Origin: Actinomycetes bacterium
GTDB lineage: Bacteria; Actinomycetota; Acidimicrobiia; Acidimicrobiales; RAAP-2
DNA: 36,076 nt
Direction: 5' to 3'
NCBI GenBank assembly: GCA_021844425.1
Contig: JAKBTL010000040.1
Coordinates: forward strand, 1-36,076
Below, piece by piece: positions 3,270 to 30,996 of the stretch; the stretch's first letter is position 1; each line of letters opens with the position of its first letter. A program made the translations under genes and the position numbers. A model generated the notes under the pieces. The model searched no databases. It saw only the letters and a list, made by a program, of their open reading frames with translations, and was not told where the DNA came from.

Positions 3270-3456
3270 CCTTCAGGTCGTCCTGCCGGGCGTCCCTCAG
3301 CTGTCACCGGCCGTCCCTCAGGTCGTCCTGCCGGCCGCCCCCGCAGTTGCCACCGGGCGTCCCGCAGCTGGCAGCGGCCGCGTCCCCCGCAGGTCGTCCT
3401 GCCGGGCGTCCCTCAGCTGTCACCGGCCGTCCCTCAGCTGTCACCGGCCGTCCCTC
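3270..3456. repeat. Tandem array of roughly 21-bp units between rapZ and the DUF3151 gene
   Basis: About eight imperfect units alternate two flavours: cctcag followed by ctgtcaccggccgtc, and cctcag followed by gtcgtcctgccgggcgtc. The array sits between convergent genes. It also supplies the last codons and the stop (3441-3443) of the reverse-strand DUF3151 gene. Confidence 0.85.
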
Positions 3457-4004: not shown

Positions 4005-4290
4005 ATCCTGCCTGCTCGACGCCGGCACGCGAGCGCCCCGAGCACGTGACCTGGAAATGGTGACGATCGCTCGAGGTCGAAGCAGGTGCTTACCGGTACG
4101 GCGCGTCGGTCCGCTGGTGCGGAGACGTGCCTCGACCTGCGAGAACGGCTCCACCGCGCCAGCACCTCCACCGCGCCAGCACCTCCACCGCGCCAGCACC
4201 TCCACCGCGCCAGCACCTCCACCGCGCCAGCACCTCCACCGCGCCAGCACCTCCACGGCCCGGGGAGCAGGAAGGACGCAACGATCCGCG
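4005..4290. other. Divergent intergenic region between the DUF3151 gene and ubiD copy A
   Basis: This gap is continuous with the duplicated ubiD leader (4291-4389), making about 385 bp without a gene. It contains a six-unit 17-bp tandem array and no RNA gene that I can recognise. The upstream signals of the DUF3151 gene should lie here, but no convincing promoter was seen. Confidence 0.6.
4151..4252. repeat. 17-bp tandem repeat, 6 perfect units
   Basis: Six identical copies of ccaccgcgccagcacct run head to tail. The period is not a multiple of three, which argues the array is intergenic. It ends 38 bp before the left edge of the ubiD duplication. Confidence 0.97.
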
Positions 4291-4298
4291 CGATGTCC

Positions 4299-4327
4299 TT
4301 GACGTAAGAATCTTGACGTAGAAGAAT
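4299..4327 (+). promoter_or_regulatory. Putative ubiD copy A promoter with tandem CTTGACGTA motifs
   Basis: Two near-copies of cttgacgta(g)aagaatct lie head to tail. TTGACG at 4299-4304 with a 17-base spacer leads to AAGAAT at 4322-4327, a plausible but weak sigma-70-type pair. The motif resembles the left half of the CTTGACATCAAG dyad seen at two other promoters in this window. The start codon has its own Shine-Dalgarno (GGAGGGG, 4374-4380). Confidence 0.45.
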
Positions 4328-4389
4328 CTAGATCGTCTTCGGCCGGTGCACTAGGTCGCCGGTCTCCTGACCCGGAGGGGTGGTAATCG

Positions 4390-5862
4390 ATGTCAGCTTC
4401 CGAGCGGTACTCCCAGGACGAGCTCGGCAGGAGTCTTCACGAGTTCATCGACTTCCTCGACAAGCACCACCCCGGTGAGGTGCTGCGGGTGGAGAGGGAG
4501 GTCGACCCGGTCTTCGAGGTGACCGCGGCGCTGTGGCGTCTCGAGAACGAGCGGCGGTTCCCGCTCGTGGTCTTCGAGAACGTGAAGGGGTCGAAGATCC
4601 CCTGCGTGACCAACGTGCACGCGAGCTTCCCCCGCCTCGCCCTCGCCCTCGGGCTCCCGATCGATGCCACGCCCCGGGACTTCATCTTGGAGTACATGAG
4701 CCGGGAGGACCACGCGATCGAGCCGCGCCTCGTCGACGCGGCGTCGGCCCCTTGCAAGCAGGTCGTGATGACCGGCGACGACGTCGACGTGACGGCGCTG
4801 CCGACGCTCAAGTACCACGAGCTCGACTCGGGCCAGGTCGACCCGGGCTTCGAGGCGTTCCAGGGCCGCTACTTCACCTTGGGCTACGAGATCATGAAGG
4901 ACCCCGACACCGGGGTGCGCAATGCCGGCATCTACCGCCTGCAGGTGAAAGGGCGCAACAAGCTCGGCATCCAGATCTCCGAGACCGCGCACGGCCACTA
5001 CATCATGCAGAAGAACCTGCGCCAGGGCCGACCCACCCCGATGGCCGTTGCCATCGGGCTCCATCCGACCGTCGAGCTCGGCTTCCTCTCGTTCACCGGC
5101 ATCGACGTCGACGAGTTCGCGATCGCGGGCGCCATGCTCGGTGAGCCTCTCGAGATGGTGAAGTGCGAGACCATCGACGTCGAGGTGCCCGCCCAGGCCG
5201 AGATCGTCCTCGAGTGCGAGATCCACCCGACCGAGCGCGAGCCCGAGGCGCCCTTCGGCGAGTACCCGGGCACCTACGGCCCCGAGCGGCTGAACCCGGT
5301 CGTCTACGTGAAGGCGATCACGATGCGCCGGGACGCCTACTACCAGAGCTCGTTCGTCGGACACCGAGACAACCTGCTCTTGTCCGGGGTGACCCGCAAC
5401 AGCCAGATCTACAAGAGCTGCCGCCTCGCCTCGGGCGCGGTCACCTCGGTCTACGTGCCCCCCTCGGGCCGCTCCCGCTACATCTGCTACGTCCAGATGG
5501 ACAAGGTGATCGAAGGAGACCCGAAGAACGCCGCGATGGCCGCGTTCGCCGCGGATCCGTTCTTGAAGTACGTCGTCGTCGTCGACGCCGACGTCGACAT
5601 CACCAACGACTCGGAGGTCTGGCACGCCATCGCGACCCGGGTGCGCTTCGACCACGACGCCTTCGTCGTCTCCTACTCGCGCGGCTCACCCCTCGACCCG
5701 GCGTCCTACGACCCGGCGGGAGGCTCACACCTCGTGACCAAGGTCGGCATCGACGCCACGAGGAAGGCGAACTACCAGCCCGAGATCTCGACCCCAGGCG
5801 TCGACAGCGTCGACCTCGACGCCGTCTTCGGCGACCTCTGGCAACAGGTCCGCCAGGACTGA
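4390..5862 (+). CDS. UbiD-family prenylated-FMN-dependent (de)carboxylase, copy A
   Basis: UbiD-family enzymes decarboxylate, or reversibly carboxylate, aromatic, heteroaromatic or alpha,beta-unsaturated acids using prenyl-FMN made by UbiX. At 490 residues the length is typical. Catalytic landmarks are present: NAGIYR (Asn178, Arg183) and EAPFGE (Glu286, Glu291), matching the Arg-Glu-Glu set of UbiD/Fdc enzymes including the five-residue spacing between the glutamates. The C-terminal core with VVVVDADVDITN is also intact. GGAGGGG lies nine bases before the ATG. It heads operon A and is followed after eight bases by a ubiX-like gene. The protein is identical to copy B at 16844-18316. Substrate cannot be read from sequence; the neighbouring molybdenum hydroxylases and LivKHMGF importer favour an exogenous aromatic or heteroaromatic acid over ubiquinone or menaquinone synthesis. 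Confidence 0.92.
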   Translation: MSASERYSQDELGRSLHEFIDFLDKHHPGEVLRVEREVDPVFEVTAALWRLENERRFPLVVFENVKGSKIPCVTNVHASFPRLALALGLPIDATPRDFILEYMSREDHAIEPRLVDAASAPCKQVVMTGDDVDVTALPTLKYHELDSGQVDPGFEAFQGRYFTLGYEIMKDPDTGVRNAGIYRLQVKGRNKLGIQISETAHGHYIMQKNLRQGRPTPMAVAIGLHPTVELGFLSFTGIDVDEFAIAGAMLGEPLEMVKCETIDVEVPAQAEIVLECEIHPTEREPEAPFGEYPGTYGPERLNPVVYVKAITMRRDAYYQSSFVGHRDNLLLSGVTRNSQIYKSCRLASGAVTSVYVPPSGRSRYICYVQMDKVIEGDPKNAAMAAFAADPFLKYVVVVDADVDITNDSEVWHAIATRVRFDHDAFVVSYSRGSPLDPASYDPAGGSHLVTKVGIDATRKANYQPEISTPGVDSVDLDAVFGDLWQQVRQD

Positions 5863-5870
5863 GGGCGGAC

Positions 5871-6419
5871 GTGTCGGCTCCCCGCAGGCTCGTCGTGGGC
5901 ATGGCAGGAGCTCCAGGTGCGAGCTACACGGTCAGCCTGCTCGGCCGTCTGCGGCAGCTCGGAGTCGAGAGCCATCTCGTCACGTGCGGGTGCTCCAGGT
6001 CGATCATCTACTCGGAGACGGGTCTCGGCCTGCGCCAGCTGTGCTCGAAGGCCGACGGGTGGTACCACGAGAGGAACCAGGCCGCGGCCATCTCGAGCGG
6101 CTCGTTCCTGAACCTCGGCATGGTCATCGTGCCTTGCACGATGCGGTCGCTCGCGGCCATCGTGACCGGCGTCGCCGACAACCTCGTCCAGCGTGCAGCG
6201 GACGTGACGCTGAAGGAAGGCAGGACGCTCGTGCTGGCGATGGCAGAGTCGAGCAGCTCGCGCATCGGACAGGAGAACCTGCGGCACGCCGAGGAGGTCG
6301 GCATGCGTATCCTCATGCTCCCCCCACCGGGTTCGACGCTCACAGTGGCCGAGAAGAACGAGGAGATCCTGGCGTGCTTCGGTCTCGGGGACGCCGCCGT
6401 GCCCCCCTCGCTGCGATGA
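5871..6419 (+). CDS. Divergent UbiX-like flavoprotein
   Basis: This 182-residue protein has the flavoprotein fold signature of UbiX, the flavin prenyltransferase: a glycine-rich N-terminal loop, then SSGSFLNLGMVIVPCTMRSLAAI and RAADVTLKEGRTLVL. It departs at positions conserved in UbiX. The loop normally reading GASGAIYG is GAPGASYT, the REAPLS segment is replaced by AESSSS, and the C-terminal YARP-containing region is missing. The other ubiX in this window (22188) keeps these. It may be a specialised partner of ubiD copy A, similar in idea to VdcB-type subunits, or may not prenylate FMN at all. GTG at 5871 is chosen for its spacing to gagggcgg and to the ubiD stop. The stop overlaps the next gene's ATG (ATGA). 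Confidence 0.8.
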   Translation: MSAPRRLVVGMAGAPGASYTVSLLGRLRQLGVESHLVTCGCSRSIIYSETGLGLRQLCSKADGWYHERNQAAAISSGSFLNLGMVIVPCTMRSLAAIVTGVADNLVQRAADVTLKEGRTLVLAMAESSSSRIGQENLRHAEEVGMRILMLPPPGSTLTVAEKNEEILACFGLGDAAVPPSLR

Positions 6420-8941
6420 CGTCGGGCGGGACGGGCGCGGCTCGCACGACGGCCTCCCCGGCTCGGGAGCCCGAGGAGTCCCGACGTCGCAGGAACCGTC
6501 GCACACTGGAGAAAGAGGGTCGGGCGGCGGAGGAGGCACGTTACGTCGGCAGGTCCGTGCCCAGGAGGGAGGACCGACGCCTCGTGACGGGGACGGGCAC
6601 GTTCGTCGCGGACATCCGCCTCGACGGCATGCTCGAGGCTGCCGTGCTCCGCAGCCCGTTCTCACGCGCGCGGATCCTCGGCATCGACGTCGCCGCAGCC
6701 CGAGAGCTTCCCGGTGTCGTGGCGGTCGTCACCGCCCAGGATCTCGTCGGCGCCGTCGATCCGTTCACCCGTTTCGTCGACCAGGAGGACACCCCGCCTG
6801 GCCTCGAGGAGGCGGTGCACCCGGTCGTCCGGCCCTGCCCGATGGAGCCGCTCGCGTCGAACGAGGTGCGCTACGTGGGCCAGCCCGTGGCTGTCGTCGT
6901 GGCCACATCCCGGTACGTCGCCGAGGACGCGCTCGAGCTGGTCGTGGTCGAGTACGAGGAGCTGCCCGCCGTGGTCGACCCCGAGGCTGCGGCCCGAGAC
7001 GGCGCGGACCTGGTGCACGCGCATCTCGGCACGAATGTCCAGGCGTCCTTCGAGGTGAGCGTCGGCGACCCCGCAGCCGCGCTCGCCGCCTCCGAGCACC
7101 GCCTCACCTGCCGGGTTCGAGTCCCGCGCCTTTCGGCGAACCCGCTCGAGACGCGCGCGGTGCTCGCCGACTGGGATCGCTCCCAGGGGCAGCTCACCGT
7201 GTGGAGCTCGACGCAGGTGCCCTACATGGTGCGTACCAGGATCTCCGAGCAGCTCCACCTTCCCGAGGCAGACGTGCGGGTGGTCGCGCCCGACGTCGGC
7301 GGCGGCTTCGGCCCGAAGGTGAACGTCTATCCCGAGGAGGTGATCGTTCCCCACCTTGCCCGGACGCTCGGTCGGCCTGTGCGGTTCGTGGAGGACCGCC
7401 AGGAGCACCTCGTCTCGACCATGCACGCCCGGGACCAGCTCCACGAGGTGACGGTCGGCTTCACCTCCGACGGGCACGTGTCGGTCGTCGACGACCGGTT
7501 CCTGCTCGACTGCGGAGCGTTCAATCCGTTCTCCCTCACCTGCGCGTACAACTCTGCGGCACATCTTCGAGGTCTCTACCGCATTCCGCACGTCCGGGTC
7601 GACGGGTCGTGCGTGCTGACCAACAAGACGCCCAACGGCCCCTACCGCGGCGCGGGGAGGCCGGAGGTCGTGTTCGTGATGGACCGCGTGATGCACCTCG
7701 TCGCGACGAGGCTCGGTCTCGATCCCGCGGATGTCGTGCGGAGGAACCTGATCACGGTCGACGAGCTCCCGTACGACCAGGGCCTGCCCTATCGTGACGG
7801 GGCCCGTGTGGTCTACGACGGCGGCGACTACCCGGCGGCGCTGGATGCGGCGCTCGGCGCCGTCGACTACGACGCGTTCCGGGCTGGCAAGGCGCTCCGG
7901 ACTTCGGAGAGCCGGCGTGTCGGGCTCGGCATCTCCCTGTACGTCGAAGGCACGGGCATCGGCCCTTTCGAAGGAGCCTCGGTGAGCGTCAACGGAGACG
8001 GCAAGGTGGTCGTGCGCTCGGGGTCGGCGCCGCACGGCCAGAGCCACCTGACGACGCTCGCCCAGGTCTGCGCCGACGAGCTCGGCGTCACAATCGACGA
8101 CGTCGACGTGCGCGCCGGCGACACGGCCCTTCTGCCCTATGGGGTCGGCACCTTCGCCAGCCGCAGCGCAGTCACTGCCGGGGCCGCAGTGGCCGATGCT
8201 GCGAGAAAGGTGAAGGACGACGTGCTGGCGGTCGCCGGTGAGCTCCTGGAGGTCGACGCCGGTGACCTCGTCATCGAGTCGGGGTCGGTCCATCCGAGAG
8301 GCTCGCCTTCCACCTCGATCGACCTCCGGGCGATCGCGCGGGCGGCCGCACCCGGGCCGCGGGCCAAGGTGCCTGCAGAGAGGCACTTCGGCCTCTCTGC
8401 GACGTCGTACTTCGTCCCTCCATCGGTCACGTTCGCCTACGGCGTCCATGTGGCGATCGTCGAGGTCGACGTCGAGCTGGGCCAGGTGAGGCTCCTGCGC
8501 TACGTCGTCGCGCACGACTGCGGACGGATGTTGAACCCGCTCGTGGTCGAGGGACAGGTGCAGGGTGGCGTCGCCCAAGGCATCGGCAGCGCGTTCTACG
8601 AGGAGGTCGTCTACAGCCCCGACGGCCAGCCGCTCACGACCACGTTCATGGACTACCTGCTCCCGACCGCGGTCGAGGTGCCTTCTGTCGACCAGATCCA
8701 CCTGTCGACCCCTTCGGAGCGAAACGTCCTGGGCGTGAGGGGTGTCGGCGAGGGCGGCGCGATCTCCCCGCCGGCGGCGATCGCCAATGCGGTGGCCGAC
8801 GCGCTCGGCCATGACGCCGAGGACCTCGTGGCGTTGCCGCTCAGCCCTGAGCAGGTGCTCCGGCTCGCGGGCGCTGCCGAAGGTGCCGGGGAACGAGGGA
8901 GCGGGACATGGCCGGCGGGCGTCTCCGGGGGTCGGTCGTGA
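6416..8941 (+). CDS. Molybdenum hydroxylase large (Mo-binding) subunit, XDH/CoxL family, no. 1
   Basis: This 841-residue protein is the molybdopterin-cytosine-dinucleotide-type catalytic subunit of the xanthine oxidase family, which inserts water-derived oxygen into heteroaromatics or aldehydes. The aldehyde-oxidase hammerhead domain begins near residue 43 (RYVGRSVPRREDRRLVTG). The Mo-binding motifs DVGGGFGPK and GPYRGAGRPE follow, and GVGEGGAISPPAAIANA near the C-terminus carries the conserved active-site Glu. The CO-dehydrogenase signature (AYRCSFR) is absent. The first ~42 residues are a basic, low-complexity extension. The ATG overlaps the ubiX-like stop. No FAD or iron-sulfur subunit gene sits in this operon, so it may borrow those at 18334-19709. 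It is clearly a paralogue of the gene at 19723. Confidence 0.93.
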   Translation: MTSGGTGAARTTASPAREPEESRRRRNRRTLEKEGRAAEEARYVGRSVPRREDRRLVTGTGTFVADIRLDGMLEAAVLRSPFSRARILGIDVAAARELPGVVAVVTAQDLVGAVDPFTRFVDQEDTPPGLEEAVHPVVRPCPMEPLASNEVRYVGQPVAVVVATSRYVAEDALELVVVEYEELPAVVDPEAAARDGADLVHAHLGTNVQASFEVSVGDPAAALAASEHRLTCRVRVPRLSANPLETRAVLADWDRSQGQLTVWSSTQVPYMVRTRISEQLHLPEADVRVVAPDVGGGFGPKVNVYPEEVIVPHLARTLGRPVRFVEDRQEHLVSTMHARDQLHEVTVGFTSDGHVSVVDDRFLLDCGAFNPFSLTCAYNSAAHLRGLYRIPHVRVDGSCVLTNKTPNGPYRGAGRPEVVFVMDRVMHLVATRLGLDPADVVRRNLITVDELPYDQGLPYRDGARVVYDGGDYPAALDAALGAVDYDAFRAGKALRTSESRRVGLGISLYVEGTGIGPFEGASVSVNGDGKVVVRSGSAPHGQSHLTTLAQVCADELGVTIDDVDVRAGDTALLPYGVGTFASRSAVTAGAAVADAARKVKDDVLAVAGELLEVDAGDLVIESGSVHPRGSPSTSIDLRAIARAAAPGPRAKVPAERHFGLSATSYFVPPSVTFAYGVHVAIVEVDVELGQVRLLRYVVAHDCGRMLNPLVVEGQVQGGVAQGIGSAFYEEVVYSPDGQPLTTTFMDYLLPTAVEVPSVDQIHLSTPSERNVLGVRGVGEGGAISPPAAIANAVADALGHDAEDLVALPLSPEQVLRLAGAAEGAGERGSGTWPAGVSGGRS

Positions 8942-9411
8942 GCAGCGCCCTCGGGGACCGGATGCCCGCTTCGGTCATGGCGGCGTTCGACGGCGCGGGG
9001 CTCGAGGACAAGGTCGGCCTCGGCTACCTGCTCGTCACGAGCGATCCTGACGGCTCGCCCCGCCCGTGCATGCTGTCGTGCGGCGAGCTGCTCGCTCCCG
9101 ACGACCGGCGCCTGCGCGTCGCGCTGTGGTCCGGCACCCACACCTGTGCGAACCTCTCGAGGGGGTCGGCCTGCCTGTTCTGCTATGTCGCAGAGGGGGT
9201 CGTCCTCTACGTGCGGGGCACGCCCAGGCACGTCGGGGTCTTGGCACGCCACCACGTCGACTGCTTCGACATCGACATCTCGAGCGTGGAGAGCGACGAC
9301 CACCCGGGGATGCCGGCGACGGCCACCTTCGGGTTCGCGGTCACGGGCCAGTCGGTGGAGTCGGTCGTGGCCGAGTGGCATGAGCGGCTGGCCGCGCTGC
9401 GCTCGCTTTGA
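8908..9411 (+). CDS. PNPOx-like (FMN-binding split-barrel) protein
   Basis: A 167-residue protein resembling pyridoxamine-5'-phosphate-oxidase-like split-barrel proteins: GLGYLLVTSDPDGSPRPCMLSCGELL forms the first strands, followed by RVALWSGTHTCANLSRGSACLF and VVLYVRGTPRHVG. Such proteins bind FMN, F420 or haem and serve as oxidoreductases or flavin carriers. I assign this from pattern, not from strong motifs. It is the last gene of operon A. ATG 8908 has a good Shine-Dalgarno (gagggagcggg) but lies inside the preceding gene; GTG 8938 gives a GTGA overlap with the coxL-type stop and is an equally plausible start. Confidence 0.6.
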   Translation: MAGGRLRGSVVSSALGDRMPASVMAAFDGAGLEDKVGLGYLLVTSDPDGSPRPCMLSCGELLAPDDRRLRVALWSGTHTCANLSRGSACLFCYVAEGVVLYVRGTPRHVGVLARHHVDCFDIDISSVESDDHPGMPATATFGFAVTGQSVESVVAEWHERLAALRSL

Positions 9412-9532
9412 GGGGCGTGGTCACTGTGAGGGGCGTGCTCGCTTTGAGGTGCCGAGCCGGTGGCCGGCAAGCCGGCGCGGCGGACCCCACCCTCCGGCGT
9501 CCCGCTTCAGACGGCTAGCTCACAGTCCGTCG

Positions 9533-9587
9533 CGAGGTCGACGGGCCGAGGTCGACGGGCCGAGGTCGACGGGCCGAGGTCAGCGGG
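9533..9587. repeat. 14-bp tandem repeat at the 3' end of the MarR gene
   Basis: Three perfect units of cgaggtcgacgggc (9533-9574) and a degenerate fourth overlap the stop codon of the reverse-strand MarR gene. Just upstream (about 9405-9450) is a looser duplication of a tttgaggggcgtg motif after the operon A stop. Confidence 0.85.
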
Positions 9588-10182
9588 TCTTCGTGCGGCG
9601 CCCGTCGCCGCTGTCCGGCCCGTCAAGCGGGTCGGCGAGGTCCCCGAGGTGGACCAACAGCTCTCGCAGGAGCTTTGGCAGGACGCGGCGCTCGGAAGCC
9701 GTCAGGACGTCCAGCATGCGGCGCTCGTTCTCGAGGTGGTCGCGCACGGCGTCGTCGATCACCGTGCGCCCGCGCGCGGTGAGGACGACCTTGATGCCGC
9801 GACGATCGTCGGCGTCGGGGATGCGCTCGACCAGGCCCATCTCCTCGAGGCGGTCGATCCGGTTGGTCATCGCTCCCGACGAGATGAGCAGCGAGCTGTA
9901 GAGCTCGGTCGGGGAGAGCTCGTAGGGCGCGCCGGCACGCCGGAGTGCCGCGAGCACGTCGAAGCCACCTCTCGAGAGCCCGTGCTCGGCGAAGATCTCT
10001 TCGGTGGCGGCCTCGGAGAGACGTGCGAGGCGCCAGATGCGAGCGATGGTGCCCATGGGGGACGCGTCGAGGTCGGGGCGCTCGCGCGACCACTGCTCCA
10101 AGATCTGGTCGACGTAGTCCCTCCGGGCCACGTGCTGAGTCGGCTGGCCCTTCGCCTCCTTCTCGGCGCCAACGACGGTCAT
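9580..10182 (-). CDS. MarR-family transcriptional regulator
   Basis: A 200-residue winged-helix regulator. The MarR core is visible as LSRGGFDVLAALRRAG, SPTELYSSLLISSGAMTNRIDRLEEMGLVERIPDADDRRGIKVVLTARG, with the recognition helix around SSGAMTNRIDRLE and the wing DADDRRG. MarR proteins usually bind short dyads as dimers and release DNA on binding a phenolic or related ligand. A strong GGAGGAGG precedes the ATG. It is divergent from livK, and the shared intergenic region holds the dyad CTTGACATCAAG at 10221-10232, the natural autoregulatory site. The same dyad lies before the LLM gene at 23132. Regulation of the importer and operon C by an aromatic-type ligand is inferred. Confidence 0.9.
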   Translation of the reverse strand: MTVVGAEKEAKGQPTQHVARRDYVDQILEQWSRERPDLDASPMGTIARIWRLARLSEAATEEIFAEHGLSRGGFDVLAALRRAGAPYELSPTELYSSLLISSGAMTNRIDRLEEMGLVERIPDADDRRGIKVVLTARGRTVIDDAVRDHLENERRMLDVLTASERRVLPKLLRELLVHLGDLADPLDGPDSGDGRRTKTR

Positions 10183-10220
10183 GGGCGGCCTCCTCCAGGT
10201 TGTCTCTCTAGCTCTTGTAT

Positions 10221-10250
10221 CTTGACATCAAGTAGGCGAAAGTGTAGCTT
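10221..10250 (+). promoter_or_regulatory. livK promoter with overlapping MarR-type operator
   Basis: The dyad CTTGACATCAAG (10221-10232, half-sites CTTGA/TCAAG) overlaps TTGACA at 10222-10227. A 17-base spacer leads to TAGCTT at 10245-10250. A repressor on this dyad would cover the -35 box. The identical dyad with the same promoter geometry occurs at 23096-23125. Confidence 0.75.
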
Positions 10251-10295
10251 TCTTGTGGCACCGGACCTGGACCAAAGAGAAGGGGGGCGGTCACC

Positions 10296-11633
10296 ATGCG
10301 GCATCGGTTCGCCAAGGTAGTCGCAGCGCTCGGAGTGGGGGGGCTTGTCCTCGCCTTCTGCGGAGCGGGGACCATCGTAGGCGCCAGCCAAGCGAAGCAT
10401 GCCAAGAAGGGCTTGTCGGGCGTCTCGGGGAAGCTGACCATCGGCGTCTTCAATCCGTTCAGCGGCAACACAGCCAGCTTCGGCCCGTTGATGATGTCGG
10501 GCTGCATCCCGGCAGCTCGGCTCGTGAATGCCGACGGGGGGCTCTTCGGCCATCACCTGACCTGCGTGCCTGTCGACACGAGGGGCGACCCGGTCGACGC
10601 GGTGCCCGCTGCAGACAAGCTGGTCGCCACGGGCAAGAACCTCATCATGGTCATCGGGCCCAGCTCCGACGAGGCGCTCGCGACGGTGCCGATCTTCCAG
10701 TCTGCGAAGGTCCCGATGTTCCCCGACGCGGGCAATGCGGCGTTCGACAGGAGCAAGTACACGTACCTGTGGCGCCTGATCCCCCCAGACGCGGCGACCG
10801 GCGTCGCGATGGCGATCTGGGCGCACAAGATGGGCTACAAGCGGGCGGCGAACATCTACACATCTGCCACCGGGTACGGCACAGGTCCAGCTGGGATCGA
10901 CGCCGGGTTTCCGGCTCTAGGGGGCAAGATCGTCTACGACGGGGTGCTCACCCCTGGCCAGCCCACCTACGAGAGCACCATCACCGCGATGCTCGCGAAG
11001 AAGCCGCAGGTCATCTTCTACCAGGCAGGCCCGCCGACCTCGGCCACGTTCTTCTCCGAGCTAAAGGCGCTCGGCCACCTCCTGCCGACGATCGGTCCTG
11101 AAGCGATCTACGAGCCGCAGTGGGACAAGGCGGTGAGCGGCGTCATCGGTGCCGGCACGCTGGCCAAGAAGGTGACGATCGTGGAGGGCTACGTGACAAC
11201 CAAGGCTCGGGGGTTCCCGATCTGGAAGAAGGCGCTCCTCGGGTCGGCGTCACAGGTGCCGCAGGCGTCGACGTACCTCACAGACCCGTTCTCCCTGGCG
11301 AACTACAACGCGGTCAACATGGTGAGCCTCGCCATCCTGGAGAAGAAGACGGTCACACGCACCGTCATCAACAAGACGTTGAACTCGATCATCGACCCGG
11401 GCAAGGGCAAGACGGTGTGCAACTCGTTCGCCGCCTGCAAGAAGGACATCCTCGCCGGCAAGAAGATCCAGTACGTGGGAGCGACAGGGCCGATCAAGCT
11501 CAACAAGTGGCACAACGCAGGCGGCACATACCATGTGATCACCGACTCGTTGAAGCCGAAGACCCTCGGCAAGATCCTGGGCGGCGAGGTCGCCCCGGTT
11601 ATCGCCAAGTCGAAGATCACGACAAAGCCCTGA
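10296..11633 (+). CDS. livK: ABC transporter substrate-binding protein, branched-chain amino acid/aromatic type
   Basis: A 445-residue extracellular solute receptor of the LivJ/LivK (type I periplasmic-binding) family. The N-terminus MRHRFAKVVAALGVGGLVLAF is a signal sequence; the Cys at about 22 is not in a good lipobox, so lipidation is uncertain. The mature part starts with KLTIGVFNPFSGNTASFGPLM, typical of the family, and carries DTRGDPVDAVPAADKLV and GPSSDEALATVPIF. Liv-type systems import branched-chain amino acids, but also amides, urea and aromatic acids. Given the neighbouring decarboxylase and hydroxylase operons, an aromatic acid is the better guess. It is transcribed from the MarR-overlapped promoter and separated from livH by a strong hairpin. 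Confidence 0.9.
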   Translation: MRHRFAKVVAALGVGGLVLAFCGAGTIVGASQAKHAKKGLSGVSGKLTIGVFNPFSGNTASFGPLMMSGCIPAARLVNADGGLFGHHLTCVPVDTRGDPVDAVPAADKLVATGKNLIMVIGPSSDEALATVPIFQSAKVPMFPDAGNAAFDRSKYTYLWRLIPPDAATGVAMAIWAHKMGYKRAANIYTSATGYGTGPAGIDAGFPALGGKIVYDGVLTPGQPTYESTITAMLAKKPQVIFYQAGPPTSATFFSELKALGHLLPTIGPEAIYEPQWDKAVSGVIGAGTLAKKVTIVEGYVTTKARGFPIWKKALLGSASQVPQASTYLTDPFSLANYNAVNMVSLAILEKKTVTRTVINKTLNSIIDPGKGKTVCNSFAACKKDILAGKKIQYVGATGPIKLNKWHNAGGTYHVITDSLKPKTLGKILGGEVAPVIAKSKITTKP

Positions 11634-11645
11634 CGGGGCCGACGA

Positions 11646-11673
11646 CGGGCCGGGCCAGTACAGGCCCGGCCCG
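11646..11673. terminator. Strong GC hairpin between livK and livH
   Basis: An 11-bp perfect stem (cgggccgggcc pairing with ggcccggcccg) closes a six-base loop (agtaca). There is no T-run, so it is more likely a partial attenuator or 3'-end stabiliser that favours livK expression over the permease genes than a full terminator. Such hairpins are common after binding-protein genes. Confidence 0.65.
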
Positions 11674-11756
11674 GGACGCCCCTGCGCACCCGGTCCCGTA
11701 CCGCGGCGCGCCACCTTTCCCTCGGATGCAAGGATGAGCAGGAGGACTAGGAGGAG

Positions 11757-12647
11757 ATGAGCCAGTTCATCGCTGCCACCGGCTTCGGGATCGTGAACGC
11801 CGGCATCTTCGCGCTCGCCGCAGTCGGCTTCACCCTGCAGTTCAGCGTGACGAACGTCTTGAACATCGGCTTCGGGGCGATCATGAGCCTGGCGGCCTTC
11901 GTCGCCTACGACCTGAACGTCGTGGTCGGGGCCAACATCTGGCTGGCGCTGGCCATTGCTGCGGTCGCGAGCGGTGTCCTCTCGGTCCTCATCAACCGTG
12001 GGATCATCCAGCCGTTCTTGAAGCGCGGCACCAGCTTCTTCGGGATGGTCGTCATCACGATCGCGCTCGACCTCATCGTGGAGTACGCGGTGGAGGCGAT
12101 CTGGGGGCCGACATTCCTCCACTACAACGTGGCCGCCGGCACCCCGGTGACCCTGGGGAGCCTCACCTTCACCCACTTCCAGCTCGTCGCGATCGGGATC
12201 TCGGTGGTCGGCATGATCGGCATCCACCTGCTCCTCAAACGGACGAAGCTCGGAAAAGCGATGCGCGCGACGTCCTGTGACGCCCGGCTCTCGAAGGTGT
12301 GCGGCATCCGGACCTCGCGGATCCACGACGCCGGGTGGTTCCTCTCCGGCACGCTCGCCGGCGTGGCGGGGGTCATCCTCGGCCTCACGCTCGGGACGTT
12401 CTCGTTCACGGTCGGTGACCAGTACCTGATCGTCATCATCGCGGCCACGATGCTCGGCGGCATCGGGCAGGCGTACGGCGCGATGCTCGGCGCCGTGGTC
12501 ATCGGGCTCGTCACCCAGTGGAGCTCGCTCGTCATCTCCGGCGGCTACAGCGAGGTGGTGGCCTTCGTGATCCTCATCGCCGTCCTGCTGGTGCGGCCGA
12601 CGGGCATCATCTCGGGCGTGGCGGCGGACAGGAACATGGCGGCGTGA
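11757..12647 (+). CDS. livH: ABC transporter permease, LivH type
   Basis: A 296-residue polytopic membrane protein of the branched-chain amino acid permease family. The opening GFGIVNAGIFALAAVGFTLQFSVTNVLNIGFGAIMSLAAF is characteristic of LivH, where a first hydrophobic helix leads into the conserved N-x-G-x-G segment. Later LGKAMRATSCDARLSKVCGI forms the cytoplasmic loop that contacts the ATPase, and TMLGGIGQAYGAMLGAVVIG is the conserved C-terminal segment. The ATG follows GGAGG repeats (aggaggactaggagg). It pairs with LivM to form the inner-membrane channel. The neighbour livM starts eight bases after its stop. Confidence 0.93.
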   Translation: MSQFIAATGFGIVNAGIFALAAVGFTLQFSVTNVLNIGFGAIMSLAAFVAYDLNVVVGANIWLALAIAAVASGVLSVLINRGIIQPFLKRGTSFFGMVVITIALDLIVEYAVEAIWGPTFLHYNVAAGTPVTLGSLTFTHFQLVAIGISVVGMIGIHLLLKRTKLGKAMRATSCDARLSKVCGIRTSRIHDAGWFLSGTLAGVAGVILGLTLGTFSFTVGDQYLIVIIAATMLGGIGQAYGAMLGAVVIGLVTQWSSLVISGGYSEVVAFVILIAVLLVRPTGIISGVAADRNMAA

Positions 12648-12654
12648 GCCCAGC

Positions 12655-13689
12655 ATGAGCAACAGCGACATCTACCTGCTGACGACGCTGCTCGTCTACA
12701 CGGGAGTGGCGATGATCGCCTCCTGGGGGCTCGACCTCCAGATCGGCGAGACCAACGTCTTGAACTTCGGGTTCATCCTCTTCGAGGCGATCGGGGCCTA
12801 CGTCACGGCGATCCTCAGCCTCGGGCCGGACACGGCGAACGGAGGGGTTCAGCAGTACGTCTTCGGCGCAGCGCTGCCCTTCCCGGTGCCGTGGCTCGTC
12901 GCCACGGCGGCCGGCGCTGTGCTCGGCCTGTTCATGGGGCTGCTCACCCTCCGCAGGCTCCGGGGGGACTACGAGGCCGTCGTGATGCTGGTGATGGCCC
13001 TCGTCGCCTTCTACGCGGTATCGGCGGACACGTCCCTGCTGAACGGCTCGGAAGGTCTGAGCCTCATCCCGGCACCATTCCAGGGTCTCGTCGGCGGCGG
13101 CCCCAACACATCCATGACGTACCGCTGGGTGTACGTGGCCGTGGTGGCGTTCGTCTGCCTGCTCGCCTTCTTCGTGGTGCGGCGGATCACGTCCGCGCCA
13201 CTGGGGCGGGCGCTCCGGGCGGTGCGCGAGAACGACGCCGTGGCCATGTCGCTCGGTAAGGACGCCGTGAGGCTGCGCATCCTGGTCCAGGTGGTCGGCG
13301 GGGCCCTCGGGGCGCTCGCCGGGGCGATGCTCGTGCAGTGGGTGGGGGCGTGGGCGCCCGGCTCGTGGACCTATCCGGAGACCTTCACGCTGTTCGCCGC
13401 CATTATCGTCGGCGGCAGGGCGAACGCCTCGGGCGTCGCGCTGGGGGCGATCATCGTGCCGGGCATCATCCTCGAGGGCGTCATCTTCCTGCCGTCGATC
13501 GGCCCTTCCTACCTCACCCCGGCACTGCAGTGGGTCCTCATCGGGGTACTCATCATCGGGTTCATGTGGTTCCGCCCGCAGGGCATCATCCCAGAGCGAC
13601 GACGGCGGTTCCCTGCCCTGGCGCTGCCGGGCGGGGTGGAGCAGTCGGGTGCCATCCAGCTCGTCGACGTGGAGCCGAGGCGGTCGTGA
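12655..13689 (+). CDS. livM: ABC transporter permease, LivM type
   Basis: A 344-residue polytopic permease. It begins SNSDIYLLTTLLVYTGVAMIASWGLDLQIGETNVLNFG, the LivM-type N-terminus. The coupling loop is PLGRALRAVRENDAVAMSLGKDAVRLRILVQVVGGALGALAGAM, and IIVGGRANASGVALGAII is the conserved terminal motif. It forms a heterodimer with LivH. The last ~35 residues are a hydrophilic tail after WFRPQGIIPERRRRF. The stop overlaps the livG start (GTGA), indicating translational coupling. Confidence 0.93.
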   Translation: MSNSDIYLLTTLLVYTGVAMIASWGLDLQIGETNVLNFGFILFEAIGAYVTAILSLGPDTANGGVQQYVFGAALPFPVPWLVATAAGAVLGLFMGLLTLRRLRGDYEAVVMLVMALVAFYAVSADTSLLNGSEGLSLIPAPFQGLVGGGPNTSMTYRWVYVAVVAFVCLLAFFVVRRITSAPLGRALRAVRENDAVAMSLGKDAVRLRILVQVVGGALGALAGAMLVQWVGAWAPGSWTYPETFTLFAAIIVGGRANASGVALGAIIVPGIILEGVIFLPSIGPSYLTPALQWVLIGVLIIGFMWFRPQGIIPERRRRFPALALPGGVEQSGAIQLVDVEPRRS

Positions 13690-14519
13690 GCGCGGACACG
13701 GTGGCAGGGGGCATGCCGGAGACCAGCAGATCGCATATGGCCGTCGCTACCGAGGAGGGCACTTCTTGCATCCTCGAGACGCGCGGGGTCCGCAAGAGCT
13801 TCGGCGGTGTCGTCGCGGTCGAGGACGTGTCGATCACGGTCCCAGCCGGCCACATCGTCGGGTTGATCGGGCCGAACGGTGCAGGGAAGTCGACCCTGCT
13901 GTCGATCCTTGCCGGTGCTCAGGTGCCGGATGCCGGCTCGATCTGGTTCCTCGGGGAGGAGATCTCGCGCCAGAACCCCGTCAAGCGGGCGCGCAAGGGA
14001 CTGACCCGGACGTTCCAGCTCTCGGGCGACCTTCCGCGCCTGACCGTGCTCGAGAACCTCCTCCTTGCGGCTCCCGATCAGAGCGGGGAGCACCTCTGGG
14101 CTGCGCTCGTCGGCAAGCGGCTGTGGAAGCGCCAGGAAGAGGCGCTCGTCATCCGCGCCCGGGCGCTCCTCAACCGCTTCGACATGCGCAAGCACGAGGA
14201 CGCGTACGTGAACGAGCTCTCCGGGGGTCAGCGCCGGCTCGTGGAGATCATGAGGTCGCTCATGGCGAACCCCCGTCTGCTGCTTCTCGACGAGCCGTTC
14301 GCCGGGGTGAACCCCAGCTTGTCGCGGCGGATCGAGAGCCATCTCATCGACTTGCGCGCCGACGGGCTGACGATGGTGCTCGTCGAGCACGAGCTGGGCG
14401 TGGTGGAGCGGTGCTGCGACCCGGTCGTGGTGATGGCCATGGGCCACGTCATCGCAGAGGGCACGATGGGAGACGTACGGACGCGAGGTGAAGTGCTGGA
14501 TGCATATCTGGCAGGATGA
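13686..14519 (+). CDS. livG: ABC transporter ATP-binding protein, LivG type
   Basis: A 277-residue ATPase that powers the LivHM channel. Walker A is GPNGAGKST, the signature is LSGGQRR, and Walker B is LLLLDEPFAGVNP; the FAGVNP/ENLLLA pattern and KGLTRTFQ are typical of LivG. The GTG at 13686 is chosen for its 4-bp overlap with livM; it adds ~30 residues before the ABC domain, so an internal start near the ATG at 13734 (MAVATEEG) is an alternative. The livF start lies one base after the stop. Confidence 0.93.
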   Translation: MSADTVAGGMPETSRSHMAVATEEGTSCILETRGVRKSFGGVVAVEDVSITVPAGHIVGLIGPNGAGKSTLLSILAGAQVPDAGSIWFLGEEISRQNPVKRARKGLTRTFQLSGDLPRLTVLENLLLAAPDQSGEHLWAALVGKRLWKRQEEALVIRARALLNRFDMRKHEDAYVNELSGGQRRLVEIMRSLMANPRLLLLDEPFAGVNPSLSRRIESHLIDLRADGLTMVLVEHELGVVERCCDPVVVMAMGHVIAEGTMGDVRTRGEVLDAYLAG

Positions 14520-14580
14520 CGTGAGCACGTCCAACGACGACGTGAGCACGTCCAACGACGACGCAAGCACGTCCCACGAT
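14518..14580 (+). repeat. 21-bp tandem repeat, 3 units, at the livG/livF junction
   Basis: Two identical 21-bp units start at 14518 and 14539, and a third with three changes starts at 14560. They encode the peptide DVSTSND repeated at the LivF N-terminus and overlap the livG stop. Confidence 0.9.
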
Positions 14581-15354
14581 CACATCGAGGTCTCGCTCGC
14601 CGCGGAGCACGGACGACCCGAGCCGATCCTGCAGGTGGCCGACCTCTCCGCTGGGTACGGCGGCCCGCCCATCGTCTCGGGACTCAACCTCACGGTCGGG
14701 AAGGGCGAGATCGTGACGATCGTGGGGCCGAACGGCGCAGGGAAGAGCACCCTCGTGAAGACCATCATCGGGGAGCTGCGTGCGTCGAGAGGGGTGGTGA
14801 CGCTCGCTGGAAAGCCCGTGACGGCAGTCCCGACGGAGCTGCTCGTGCGCAGGGGGATCGGCTACGTTCCCCAGCGAAACGACGTCTTTGGAATGCTGAC
14901 CGTGCGTGAGAACTTGGAGGTTGGCGGGTACCTGCTTGCGAAGCGGGAGGTCGGCCGGCGCATCCAAGAGACCCTCGCGTACTTTCCGAGGCTCGAAGAG
15001 CTTGCTGCACGCCGCGTGCTTGTGAGCAAGATGAGCGGCGGCGAGCGGAAGATGCTCGCACTCGCGCGCGCGTTGATGATGCGTCCCGAGGTGCTCATCT
15101 TGGACGAGCCGACCGCCGGGTTGGCAGTGCAAGTGGCAAAGACCGTCCTCCACGAGCAGGTTCCGGCACTCGCGGAAAGAGGCGTGTCCATCTTGCTCAT
15201 CGAACAGCGTGCTGCCGACGCGCTCGAGATCTCCAACTGGGGGTACGTTCTCGTCTCGGGAATGGTGCGGATCTCGGCGAGCGCGTCGGAGATCCTCGGG
15301 CGTAAAGACATCGGCGAGATCTTCCTCGGCAAGTTCTCCACCGACACCCGGTGA
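14521..15354 (+). CDS. livF: ABC transporter ATP-binding protein, LivF type
   Basis: A 277-residue ATPase, partner of LivG. Walker A is GPNGAGKST, signature MSGGERK, Walker B VLILDEPTAGL; VPQRNDVFGMLTVRENLEVGGYL is the LivF-type Q-loop region. I chose GTG 14521, one base past the livG stop; an upstream in-frame GTG (14488) lies inside livG. The first ~20 residues are the VSTSNDD tandem repeat, not part of the ABC fold, so the true start could be slightly further in. The GTG of the next gene starts two bases after its stop. Confidence 0.92.
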   Translation: MSTSNDDVSTSNDDASTSHDHIEVSLAAEHGRPEPILQVADLSAGYGGPPIVSGLNLTVGKGEIVTIVGPNGAGKSTLVKTIIGELRASRGVVTLAGKPVTAVPTELLVRRGIGYVPQRNDVFGMLTVRENLEVGGYLLAKREVGRRIQETLAYFPRLEELAARRVLVSKMSGGERKMLALARALMMRPEVLILDEPTAGLAVQVAKTVLHEQVPALAERGVSILLIEQRAADALEISNWGYVLVSGMVRISASASEILGRKDIGEIFLGKFSTDTR

Positions 15355-15355
15355 C

Positions 15356-16756
15356 GTGAGCGCGGCCTTGGGAGACGGTGCGATCGCATCGGATCCTCCG
15401 GCTCGCGAGCGACTGCTCACGCTGCGACTCGTCGCACTGCTCTCTGCGACGTTCGCAGGCGCCTACTACAGCAACATCGCGCTGGTGCCGCTTGGCGCGG
15501 TCCTCGATCACTTCCACACCTCCGTGGCCCTCGGCGCGCTCGTCCTCGGCGGCTTCGCCGTCCCACTCGCTGCAGCGACGCCCGTCGCCGCGTATGCGGG
15601 GGAAGCGATCGGCCTCACGCGGGCCCTCGCTCTGGCGGTGGGGATCGTCGCGCTCGGCTCGGCCGCAGCAGCCCTCGCCCCGAGCTTCGCCGTGCTCGTC
15701 GCGGTGCGCGTCGTCCAGGGCACCGCCGCGGCCGTCATCGTCCCAGCGGTGCTGATCCTCCTCGTCTCCACCTCCTCTGAGCGGGTACGGCCGCTCGCGC
15801 TGGGGATGTGGTCGTCGGTCAACAGCCTGGGCCGTCTGATCTCGTTCCCCGTCGGAGGAGCGCTCGCCTCCGCCGCAGGCTGGAGCGCGGTGTTCTGGTC
15901 GGCCGTGCCGATCTGTGGGCTTGCGTCGCTGGCGATCGCGCTCTTCGTGCCGCGCCGCGCCATGGCGCGCCCCCCGCTCGACCGCCGTGTTGCGGCTTCG
16001 TTGACGTTCGGGGCCGCACTCGTGCTCGGGGGCCTCACCGCGATCGCCACCGACCGGACGGGGCGGGTGGTCGGCGCGTGCCTCGGCGCAGCCGGTGCCG
16101 CGCTGCTCGTCGTCGCGTGGCGGCGGTCGCGCGGCCGGCCGGGAAGCCTCTTGCCGGTCGCGCTCTTTTCGACGCCGACCTTCGTGCGCAGCAGCGTCGG
16201 CGGCTTCGTGCAGATGGCGATGATCGTCGTGGACATCACGGGAGTGTCGTTGTTCTTGGTCCGTGGAGGAGAGGCGAGCACCGCAGTCGCCGGCCTGGTG
16301 GCGCTCGCCTTTCCCGCGGTCATGGTCGTCGCGTCGACCGTCGCGGGGGCGGCGATGGCCCGTCTCGGCGGGCGCCGCGTCTTTTGGATCGGCCTGGCCC
16401 TGCTCGCCGCAGGGCAAGGGGGGATCGCGGTCGCGCTCCGGCCCGGTGCAGGAGTGTCTGCGCTCCTCGTCGCGTCCCTGGGCGTCGCCGGGGGCGGAGC
16501 AGCGCTCGTGCAGACCTCGTCGGCGAGCGGCGCGACGCGGCCGGAGCATCGTGACGGGACCGCCGCGGTCGGCATCTTCAACCTCGTGCGGTTCTCGGGA
16601 ACTGCGGCAGGAGCGGCATGGCTCGCCATTGCCTTTTCCGTCGGGACCAGCTATCGAGCGCTGTTCCTCAGTGCAGCCGCCACCGTCGGCGCGGTGCTGG
16701 CGCTCACTGCGGTGCTCGGTCGTCGCCCGCGGGCCCTGGAGCGCCGATGTCCTTGA
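15356..16756 (+). CDS. MFS transporter (DHA2-like drug/metabolite exporter), C-terminus formed by the ubiD duplication
   Basis: A 466-residue multi-spanning membrane protein of the major facilitator superfamily. The segment VAVRVVQGTAAAVIVPAVLILL, then LALGMWSSVNSLGRLISFPVGGALASAAGWSAVFW, matches the conserved motifs of the DHA2 (14-helix) drug:H+ antiporters. It may export a pathway intermediate or toxic aromatic. GTG 15356 lies just after the livF stop, so it is probably in the liv operon. The last codons (RCP and stop) come from the left edge of the duplicated ubiD segment that starts at 16745, so the original C-terminus may have been replaced. The loss looks small because the final helix is complete. 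Confidence 0.85.
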   Translation: MSAALGDGAIASDPPARERLLTLRLVALLSATFAGAYYSNIALVPLGAVLDHFHTSVALGALVLGGFAVPLAAATPVAAYAGEAIGLTRALALAVGIVALGSAAAALAPSFAVLVAVRVVQGTAAAVIVPAVLILLVSTSSERVRPLALGMWSSVNSLGRLISFPVGGALASAAGWSAVFWSAVPICGLASLAIALFVPRRAMARPPLDRRVAASLTFGAALVLGGLTAIATDRTGRVVGACLGAAGAALLVVAWRRSRGRPGSLLPVALFSTPTFVRSSVGGFVQMAMIVVDITGVSLFLVRGGEASTAVAGLVALAFPAVMVVASTVAGAAMARLGGRRVFWIGLALLAAGQGGIAVALRPGAGVSALLVASLGVAGGGAALVQTSSASGATRPEHRDGTAAVGIFNLVRFSGTAAGAAWLAIAFSVGTSYRALFLSAAATVGAVLALTAVLGRRPRALERRCP

Positions 16757-16781
16757 CGTAAGAATCTTGACGTAGAAGAAT
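16753..16781 (+). promoter_or_regulatory. Putative ubiD copy B promoter with tandem CTTGACGTA motifs
   Basis: Identical to the leader of copy A. TTGACG at 16753-16758 overlaps the MFS stop codon, and AAGAAT lies 17 bases on. Because the leader is inside the duplicated segment, both ubiD operons should respond to the same signal unless read-through from the liv operon dominates here. Confidence 0.45.
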
Positions 16782-16843
16782 CTAGATCGTCTTCGGCCGG
16801 TGCACTAGGTCGCCGGTCTCCTGACCCGGAGGGGTGGTAATCG

Positions 16844-18316
16844 ATGTCAGCTTCCGAGCGGTACTCCCAGGACGAGCTCGGCAGGAGTCTTCACGAGTTC
16901 ATCGACTTCCTCGACAAGCACCACCCCGGTGAGGTGCTGCGGGTGGAGAGGGAGGTCGACCCGGTCTTCGAGGTGACCGCGGCGCTGTGGCGTCTCGAGA
17001 ACGAGCGGCGGTTCCCGCTCGTGGTCTTCGAGAACGTGAAGGGGTCGAAGATCCCCTGCGTGACCAACGTGCACGCGAGCTTCCCCCGCCTCGCCCTCGC
17101 CCTCGGGCTCCCGATCGATGCCACGCCCCGGGACTTCATCTTGGAGTACATGAGCCGGGAGGACCACGCGATCGAGCCGCGCCTCGTCGACGCGGCGTCG
17201 GCCCCTTGCAAGCAGGTCGTGATGACCGGCGACGACGTCGACGTGACGGCGCTGCCGACGCTCAAGTACCACGAGCTCGACTCGGGCCAGGTCGACCCGG
17301 GCTTCGAGGCGTTCCAGGGCCGCTACTTCACCTTGGGCTACGAGATCATGAAGGACCCCGACACCGGGGTGCGCAATGCCGGCATCTACCGCCTGCAGGT
17401 GAAAGGGCGCAACAAGCTCGGCATCCAGATCTCCGAGACCGCGCACGGCCACTACATCATGCAGAAGAACCTGCGCCAGGGCCGACCCACCCCGATGGCC
17501 GTTGCCATCGGGCTCCATCCGACCGTCGAGCTCGGCTTCCTCTCGTTCACCGGCATCGACGTCGACGAGTTCGCGATCGCGGGCGCCATGCTCGGTGAGC
17601 CTCTCGAGATGGTGAAGTGCGAGACCATCGACGTCGAGGTGCCCGCCCAGGCCGAGATCGTCCTCGAGTGCGAGATCCACCCGACCGAGCGCGAGCCCGA
17701 GGCGCCCTTCGGCGAGTACCCGGGCACCTACGGCCCCGAGCGGCTGAACCCGGTCGTCTACGTGAAGGCGATCACGATGCGCCGGGACGCCTACTACCAG
17801 AGCTCGTTCGTCGGACACCGAGACAACCTGCTCTTGTCCGGGGTGACCCGCAACAGCCAGATCTACAAGAGCTGCCGCCTCGCCTCGGGCGCGGTCACCT
17901 CGGTCTACGTGCCCCCCTCGGGCCGCTCCCGCTACATCTGCTACGTCCAGATGGACAAGGTGATCGAAGGAGACCCGAAGAACGCCGCGATGGCCGCGTT
18001 CGCCGCGGATCCGTTCTTGAAGTACGTCGTCGTCGTCGACGCCGACGTCGACATCACCAACGACTCGGAGGTCTGGCACGCCATCGCGACCCGGGTGCGC
18101 TTCGACCACGACGCCTTCGTCGTCTCCTACTCGCGCGGCTCACCCCTCGACCCGGCGTCCTACGACCCGGCGGGAGGCTCACACCTCGTGACCAAGGTCG
18201 GCATCGACGCCACGAGGAAGGCGAACTACCAGCCCGAGATCTCGACCCCAGGCGTCGACAGCGTCGACCTCGACGCCGTCTTCGGCGACCTCTGGCAACA
18301 GGTCCGCCAGGACTGA
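16844..18316 (+). CDS. UbiD-family prenylated-FMN-dependent (de)carboxylase, copy B
   Basis: Its 490 residues are identical to the protein at 4390-5862, including Asn178/Arg183 (NAGIYR) and Glu286/Glu291 (EAPFGE). Here it heads operon B and is followed after 17 bases by the FAD subunit of a molybdenum hydroxylase. A canonical ubiX closes the operon, which would supply prenyl-FMN to both copies. The absence of even synonymous change means the duplication is very recent, is maintained by gene conversion, or is an assembly error. The functional reading is as for copy A. Confidence 0.92.
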   Translation: MSASERYSQDELGRSLHEFIDFLDKHHPGEVLRVEREVDPVFEVTAALWRLENERRFPLVVFENVKGSKIPCVTNVHASFPRLALALGLPIDATPRDFILEYMSREDHAIEPRLVDAASAPCKQVVMTGDDVDVTALPTLKYHELDSGQVDPGFEAFQGRYFTLGYEIMKDPDTGVRNAGIYRLQVKGRNKLGIQISETAHGHYIMQKNLRQGRPTPMAVAIGLHPTVELGFLSFTGIDVDEFAIAGAMLGEPLEMVKCETIDVEVPAQAEIVLECEIHPTEREPEAPFGEYPGTYGPERLNPVVYVKAITMRRDAYYQSSFVGHRDNLLLSGVTRNSQIYKSCRLASGAVTSVYVPPSGRSRYICYVQMDKVIEGDPKNAAMAAFAADPFLKYVVVVDADVDITNDSEVWHAIATRVRFDHDAFVVSYSRGSPLDPASYDPAGGSHLVTKVGIDATRKANYQPEISTPGVDSVDLDAVFGDLWQQVRQD

Positions 18317-18333
18317 GGGCGGGGAACGTCACG

Positions 18334-22889: not shown

Positions 22890-22938
22890 GCGCGCCGAGC
22901 GCCGACGGCTGAGCGCGCCGAGCGCCGACGGCTGAGCG
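22878..22938. repeat. 23-bp tandem repeat across the ubiX stop
   Basis: Two perfect 23-bp units and most of a third contain gccgacggctgagcg. The first unit carries the ubiX stop codon (22887-22889), so the last two codons of ubiX are encoded by repeat sequence. Confidence 0.88.
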
Positions 22939-23095: not shown

Positions 23096-23125
23096 CTTGA
23101 CATCAAGAGATAACGCTGGTATCGT
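23096..23125 (+). promoter_or_regulatory. Operon C promoter with MarR-type operator
   Basis: CTTGACATCAAG (23096-23107) is identical to the dyad before livK. TTGACA at 23097-23102, a 17-base spacer and TATCGT at 23120-23125 form a good promoter. The ATG of the LLM gene is six bases after the -10 box and has no Shine-Dalgarno, so the mRNA is probably leaderless. Confidence 0.78.
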
Positions 23126-30881: not shown

Positions 30882-30982
30882 TGACCGCCAGCGCGCGGGC
30901 AAAGAGCGCGGCCGCGCGATACCGCTCCAGCACAGCGCGCGGGGGACTGCGGTCGTGGGAGCTGCGCCCTGGCCTCGGCGAG

Positions 30983-30988
30983 TAGAGT
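30983..30988 (+). promoter_or_regulatory. Putative -10 box before the third Mo-hydroxylase subunit
   Basis: TAGAGT ends eight bases before the GTG at 30997, consistent with a leaderless or near-leaderless transcript. No convincing -35 hexamer was found. Confidence 0.35.
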
Positions 30989-30996
30989 GCTCGAAC

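Follow-up and report, generated by a model that had tools for sequence, protein, structure and literature searches.

Two copies of a promoter-and-ubiD segment in an acidimicrobial catabolic cluster: a likely case of concerted evolution

Near-identical gene pairs and the ubiD repeat

In Acinetobacter, near-identical genes of two catabolic operons, pcaIJF and catIJF, are exchanged by gene conversion, a case for which our literature search gave no confirmation. The present analysis concerns a repeated segment that carries a promoter-like site and a complete gene for a UbiD-family decarboxylase (ubiD) and that heads two operons in the genome of an uncultured Actinomycetes bacterium of the order Acidimicrobiales (assembly GCA_021844425.1, contig JAKBTL010000040.1). 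The stretch analysed, termed the window, is 36,076 bases long and corresponds to bases 1–36076 of a 40,411-base scaffold, in which a 100-N gap starts directly afterward. Like this pair, the tufA and tufB genes of Salmonella are two near-identical copies in different surroundings, and conversion between them has been measured: repair-proficient strains showed rates between 2e-8 and 1e-5 per cell per generation, and large regions of difference blocked the process (PMC5485169). The tuf genes differ in being housekeeping genes that lie 762 kb apart in inverse orientation, whereas ubiD is a catabolic gene whose copies lie 12.5 kb apart in direct orientation with the promoter inside the repeat. The amoCAB, haoAB, and cycAB genes of ammonia oxidisers are also near-identical metabolic copies in conserved surroundings to which the same synteny logic applies, but there whole operons are copied rather than one gene with its promoter (PMC6053082). 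The test for concerted evolution given in the same text, with 26 prokaryotic genes, is that paralogues are more alike than orthologues while synteny excludes recent duplication. UbiD is not mentioned in the main text of that paper. Among the papers searched, none joined UbiD with gene conversion, and one named UbiD together with concerted evolution but, judging by title and abstract, treats another subject. The ubiD pair is a real duplicated promoter-plus-gene segment, most likely under concerted evolution: a familiar process in a new setting, ordinary in kind if neat in its form.

Pairwise comparison showed that positions 4291–5868 (copy 1) and 16745–18322 (copy 2) are identical at 1578 of 1578 bases, both on the forward strand and 12,454 bases apart, and that the exact match does not continue by even one base beyond either edge. 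The exact direct duplication of 1578 bp described in a first-pass annotation was thus reproduced. Each copy comprises a leader (4291–4389 in copy 1), a promoter-like site (4299–4327 in copy 1 and 16753–16781 in copy 2), the whole of ubiD (490 amino acids; 4390–5862 in copy 1 and, identically, 16844–18316 in copy 2), and 6 bases past the stop codon, so the earlier description of the copy edges as those of a promoter-plus-gene module also holds. None of the remaining exact direct repeats of at least 25 bases within the window exceeds 91 bases, and their spacings range from 14 to 137. A third full-length copy was not found in the genome itself (3,005,586 bases in 138 contigs, 91.76% complete) among 40 of 327 candidates scored, where 3 other matches span 27–95 bases.

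As had been claimed, the operons behind the two copies are differently composed, all of their genes lying on the forward strand. Copy 1 is followed by ubiX1 (5871–6419) and coxL1 (6416–8941), and copy 2 is followed by coxM (18334–19209), coxS (19209–19709), coxL2 (19723–22191), and ubiX2 (22188–22889). These flanking paralogues have diverged, with ubiX1 and ubiX2 being 46.6% identical over 133 amino acids and coxL1 and coxL2 being 51.7% identical. The locus offers a natural test of gene conversion supplying two operons with the same enzyme while their ubiX and coxL partners have diverged to ∼50% identity. The genes identified at the repeat edges (rapZ, a major facilitator superfamily (MFS) transporter gene, ubiX1, and coxM) include no transposase, although no dedicated search for mobile elements was made.

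The two ubiD places in related genomes

A scan of GTDB contigs returned 33 loci, 3 of which were above 80% identity; the other 30 were at most 37% identical and were not used. Searches for the gene were also run against genome sets that overlap each other. It was found only in the window's own genome among relatives at E ≤ 1e-50 (1 of 61) and, at E ≤ 1e-120, in the family (1 of 172), order (1 of 397), and class (1 of 395) sets. At the latter threshold, the phylum set contained 3 carriers among 396 genomes (the window's own, Centralia_MAG_23, recognised by its contig number and coordinates, and G932), relatives of WH2.bin86 contained 2 among 98 (WH2.bin86 and YP2.bin33), and relatives of Centralia_MAG_23 contained 2 among 198 (Centralia_MAG_23 and a genome with the contig number and coordinates of G932).

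YP2.bin33 (98% amino acid identity) has the order uvrC-rapZ-hypothetical-ubiD-ubiX1-coxL1, which is the copy 1 place; its 3′ junction is the same as that of window copy 1, whereas the two sequences differ to the left of the leader. WH2.bin86 (92%) carries ubiX1-coxL1-(167-amino acid open reading frame)-marR-liv-MFS-ubiD-coxM-coxS on contig L047, with ubiD in the copy 2 place and flanked on both sides as in the window; the first bases of this contig belong to the 3′ end of a further ubiD, located before ubiX1. The same two ubiD neighbourhoods are therefore present in WH2.bin86, with 102 bases of copy 1 visible. The contig start matches the second ubiD of WH2.bin86 itself at 102 of 102 positions, made up of the last 85 bases ahead of the stop codon, the codon itself, and 14 bases beyond, and then diverges; the rest of its copy 1 lies beyond the contig, so any homogenisation in this second species would be visible over this length only. 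The window and WH2.bin86 differ at 11 of 89 positions in the same region, and the chance of an unchanged run of 102 bases is ∼1.4e-6. The identity ends 6 bases past the stop codon in the window and 14 bases past it in WH2.bin86, and these differing 3′ edges fit each lineage homogenising by itself. The likely start codon of ubiX1 in WH2.bin86 (L047 99–101) lies inside the shared tail (89–102), which puts the edge of identity where the next gene starts.

In both Centralia_MAG_23 (82–83%) and G932 (82%), a single ubiD of this type lies before coxM-coxS-coxL2-ubiX2, and a ubiX1-like gene (49 and 56% identical) is present elsewhere on the contig with no ubiD adjoining. A single full ubiD of this kind was found in each of YP2.bin33, WH2.bin86, Centralia_MAG_23, and G932. 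Because short-read bins merge identical copies, these single copies count little against a second one. Such bins can hide pairs of this sort: each searched relative shows one full copy, yet at least WH2.bin86 holds the end of a second.

Within the window genome, the ubiD copies (0 of 1578 differences, subject to the assembly caveat below) are more alike than either is to the ubiD of other genomes, which differs at 56 of 1470 nucleotides in YP2.bin33 (copy 1 place) and at 170 of 1452 in WH2.bin86 (copy 2 place). At fourfold-degenerate sites, the window and YP2.bin33 differ at 31 of 258 positions in ubiD, compared with 35 of 110 in uvrC, 45 of 169 in rapZ, 27 of 105 in ubiX1, and 76 of 341 in coxL1. 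For WH2.bin86, the corresponding figure for ubiD is 74 of 238, and the 11 other counted orthologues range from 0.47 to 0.57. The contrasts between ubiD and its neighbours gave p values of ∼6e-6 for YP2.bin33 and ∼4e-11 for WH2.bin86; the latter test pooled 10 of the 11 genes, leaving out the 167-amino acid open reading frame (21 of 45), as well as coxL2 and ubiX2, whose hits were paralogues. The livG gene was left out of the divergence table because of a stop in the frame used. The low divergence does not extend to Centralia_MAG_23, in comparison with which ubiD has changed as much as the genes around it (113 of 214 fourfold sites).

Because the fourfold divergence of the neighbouring genes is high, the split between the window genome and WH2.bin86 is old. 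With ubiD in both places in both genomes, copies that had evolved without exchange should therefore differ from each other as the species do. The pair seems to be older than this split, and the arrangement of copies that are alike within a genome and different between genomes is most likely the product of concerted evolution, with gene conversion as the simplest mechanism. Gene conversion is the best reading because WH2.bin86 has the same two-place arrangement with a sequence of its own, which its two copies share without a difference over the 102 visible bases; the suggestion of active gene conversion in the first-pass annotation is supported on this point. Taken as a whole, a conserved pair that predates the split and has been kept alike by conversion between the copies is judged probable. 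In the proposed course of events, a segment with the promoter and the whole of ubiD would have been copied from before coxM to before ubiX1-coxL1 in the common ancestor of the window genome, YP2.bin33, and WH2.bin86, and homologous recombination would since have overwritten one copy with the other as far as the homology reaches, with ubiD continuing to change between species. Two operons of one MarR-linked catabolic cluster would in this way share a promoter and a decarboxylase, the dose of which would be doubled. The mechanism of conversion, its direction, the co-regulation, and the dose are what we infer from these comparisons.

The direction of copying is indicated by a short piece of sequence in YP2.bin33. 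Before its ubiD leader are 52 bases that resemble the 3′ end of the MFS transporter gene (score 64; shuffle maximum 31, with 0 of 500 reaching the score), and in the window this 3′ end precedes copy 2 only. Homology between YP2.bin33 and the window on the rapZ side stops where the MFS scrap starts, with an overlap of about ten bases. Window copy 1 has ∼260 other bases at the position of the scrap, including an array of 17-base tandem units, and no MFS tail was detected left of it (313 of 500 and 470 of 500 shuffles reached the score). Because of the MFS scrap in YP2.bin33 and the two single-copy outgroups, the coxM-side copy 2 is the likely source. The same evidence supports the earlier proposal of promoter and gene capture, with the ubiX1-coxL1 operon as the recipient.

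Several observations weigh against gene conversion within a conserved pair. The first copy in WH2.bin86 is visible for only 102 bases at the tip of a contig with a recorded coverage of 1.35, and its 5′ side is unseen, with the uvrC-matching contig ending inside uvrC (40 of 367 candidates scored). YP2.bin33 shows one copy, and no long match to the surroundings of copy 2 was found in its bin among 40 of 504 candidates scored. No relative matches the exact 5′ junction of window copy 1, where YP2.bin33 has the MFS scrap in place of the ∼260 other bases. As 40 candidates were scored for each genome in the DNA searches of relatives, missing matches are weak evidence, and no overlaps were found among 22 contig tips of WH2.bin86. 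The fourfold divergence of ubiD is about half that of its neighbours in both YP2.bin33 and WH2.bin86, which conversion alone does not predict. Fourfold sites of ubiD are C-rich (0.58), a value matched among 19 genes only by marR (0.59), and this suggests codon constraint from strong expression; exchange between closer species could also contribute to the low divergence. Finally, a single collapsed stretch of an assembly graph is the probable origin of both window copies.

Assembly limits and alternative explanations

The last of these points follows from the structure of the assembly. Exact overlaps of 127 bases were found between two pairs of contig ends (62 of 276 ends compared; shared 25-base words at offsets 0 to 102), two further pairs share shorter internal matches in the same comparison, and the order and lengths of the contigs resemble length-ranked node names in a text sort. 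These end overlaps and the naming pattern suggest that short reads were assembled in a de Bruijn graph with k = 127. Single reads probably never spanned the repeat, so that one collapsed graph stretch would have supplied both copies, and “exact” may therefore conceal a few differences. Absolute identity inside the repeat is thus an upper bound, as a few internal differences may have been smoothed away, whereas identity at both repeat ends should be real to 127 bases. In an assembly graph with an A-R-B-R-C loop, only one walk uses every edge, and an assembler can therefore write both copies. Other genomes do support the near-identity of the copies and the two places they occupy. The first-pass annotation had named an assembly artefact as what would refute the duplication; this objection is weakened by the matching places in relatives, but the assembly itself cannot prove exact identity.

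The first alternative is that both places are real and the copies slightly different, the assembler having merged them into one consensus that was used twice. The 127-base overlaps at two pairs of contig ends and the 100-N gap at C38:36077 fit such data, with which a 1578-base repeat is unreadable through and a single all-edge walk is available. Merging in the graph should, however, require the copies to agree exactly over a 127-base word at either end of the repeat, and WH2.bin86, a separate assembly, also shows 102 of 102 bases, although on a contig that is likewise from short reads. This explanation is considered unlikely.

It is also conceivable, at a distinctly low probability, that each lineage recently and independently acquired a duplicate of ubiD at this same place, with no ongoing conversion. 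Identity within a genome and the differing edges would be explained equally well, and the window and YP2.bin33 do differ left of copy 1. Such a history needs insertion before ubiX1 more than once, and the surrounding gene order is equal in the window and WH2.bin86, a synteny argument of the kind made in PMC6053082. Similarly improbable is a repeat that serves as a working recombination module, in which crossing over would remove or multiply the 12.5-kb block (the importer, the regulator, coxL1, and ubiX1), yielding mixed doses of ubiD and the importer, with the identity itself under selection. As a plain deletion switch between the copies, the idea has no support, and neither has the claim that the locus is structurally unstable or switchable: the rapZ-ubiD-coxM form was seen in 0 of the 4 relatives with the gene (YP2.bin33, WH2.bin86, Centralia_MAG_23, and G932).

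Very improbable is a single ubiD per genome, the second arising from misassembly or from mixed strains, with rapZ-ubiD-coxM in some cells and a circle or another arrangement in the rest. Three wholly searched relatives do have one full ubiD of this kind each, and the walk through the repeat in the window probably lacked spanning reads. Against this, ubiD in YP2.bin33 occupies the copy 1 place and shares its 3′ junction, WH2.bin86 has copy 2 with both neighbours as well as the ubiD-ubiX1 junction of copy 1, and an identical error would have to occur in separate assemblies. Pure chance and plain assembly error were rejected, as was YP2.bin33 as a deletion product, since ubiX1 and not coxM follows its ubiD.

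Regulation, predicted function, and neighbouring features

The promoter-like site in the leader (TTGACG-17-AAGAAT, forward strand) matches at 9 of 12 positions; for shuffles the mean was 0.0 (standard deviation 0.2). The leader contains CTTGACGTA twice, 14 bases apart, and its TTGACGTAAGAATCTTGACGTAGAAGAATC block is kept in YP2.bin33 and has one change in WH2.bin86; the promoter-like site stands within a block conserved in this way. A gene for a MarR-family regulator (9580–10182, reverse strand; PF12802 and PF01047) is accompanied by a candidate operator, CTTGACATCAAG, with two exact sites, one between marR and livK (10221–10232) and one at 23096–23107, neither assigned to a strand, compared with 0.05 sites expected when up to 1 mismatch is allowed. 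CTTGACATCAAG was also found between marR and livK in WH2.bin86. From sequence, the regulator and the two sites suggest a control circuit, a candidate MarR regulon. That MarR also acts at the ubiD leader, whose CTTGACGTA words are related to but differ from CTTGACATCAAG, is a guess. The second CTTGACATCAAG site precedes a luciferase-like monooxygenase gene (PF00296), and the TTGACA inside each site could be a −35 box.

Membership of ubiD in the UbiD family is indicated by three UbiD domains (PF01977, PF20695, and PF20696) and a TIGR00148 score of 323 bits, above the cut-off of 244.85. Its closest solved relative is 6H6V (E 1.8e-85 over residues 13–476), named “3-polyprenyl-4-hydroxybenzoate decarboxylase and related decarboxylases” in the database; the family is shared, and the structure is presumably HmfF, a furandicarboxylate decarboxylase. 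Two UbiX-family genes in the cluster fit a predicted UbiD decarboxylation with prenylated flavin mononucleotide. The product of ubiX1 is a flavin prenyltransferase of 182 amino acids that scores 126 bits with TIGR00421 (cut-off 108.9), and that of ubiX2 scores 263 bits; ubiX1 aligns to UbiX profiles over the first 143–146 positions only, its C-terminal end being divergent.

Both coxL1 and coxL2 encode molybdenum hydroxylase large subunits with PF01315, PF02738, and PF20256, coxM encodes the flavin adenine dinucleotide subunit (PF00941 and PF03450), and coxS encodes the 2Fe-2S subunit (PF01799 and PF00111). Among solved structures, coxL1 is closest to quinoline 2-oxidoreductase and 6-hydroxypseudooxynicotine dehydrogenase. 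Large subunits lacking adjacent M and S subunit genes are encoded by coxL1 and by coxL3 (30955–33300). CoxL1 may borrow M and S subunits from the second operon, and common control would then be an advantage; the genome holds eight Fer2_2 matches, however, so other partners are possible.

Between the two copies is a branched-chain-amino-acid-type ABC importer (10296–15354, forward strand; PF13458, two BPD_transp_2, and two ABC_tran domains), the genes of which we take to be livKHMGF. The predicted pathway, as read from gene content, would consist of liv-type uptake of an aromatic or heteroaromatic acid, molybdenum hydroxylation, and UbiD decarboxylation with the UbiX-made cofactor. The MFS transporter gene (15209–16756, forward strand, as the reading frame was listed, with a true start that may be later; PF07690) ends within the first 12 bases of copy 2. 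The 167-amino acid open reading frame (8908–9411) was rejected as a PPOX-type protein (17.2 bits against a cut-off of 28.1). Short tandem repeats occur at 1674–1818, 3274–3456, 3877–3972, 4149–4256, and 22877–22938, one of them in frame within uvrC, and the 17-base-unit array at 4149–4256 sits immediately before copy 1.

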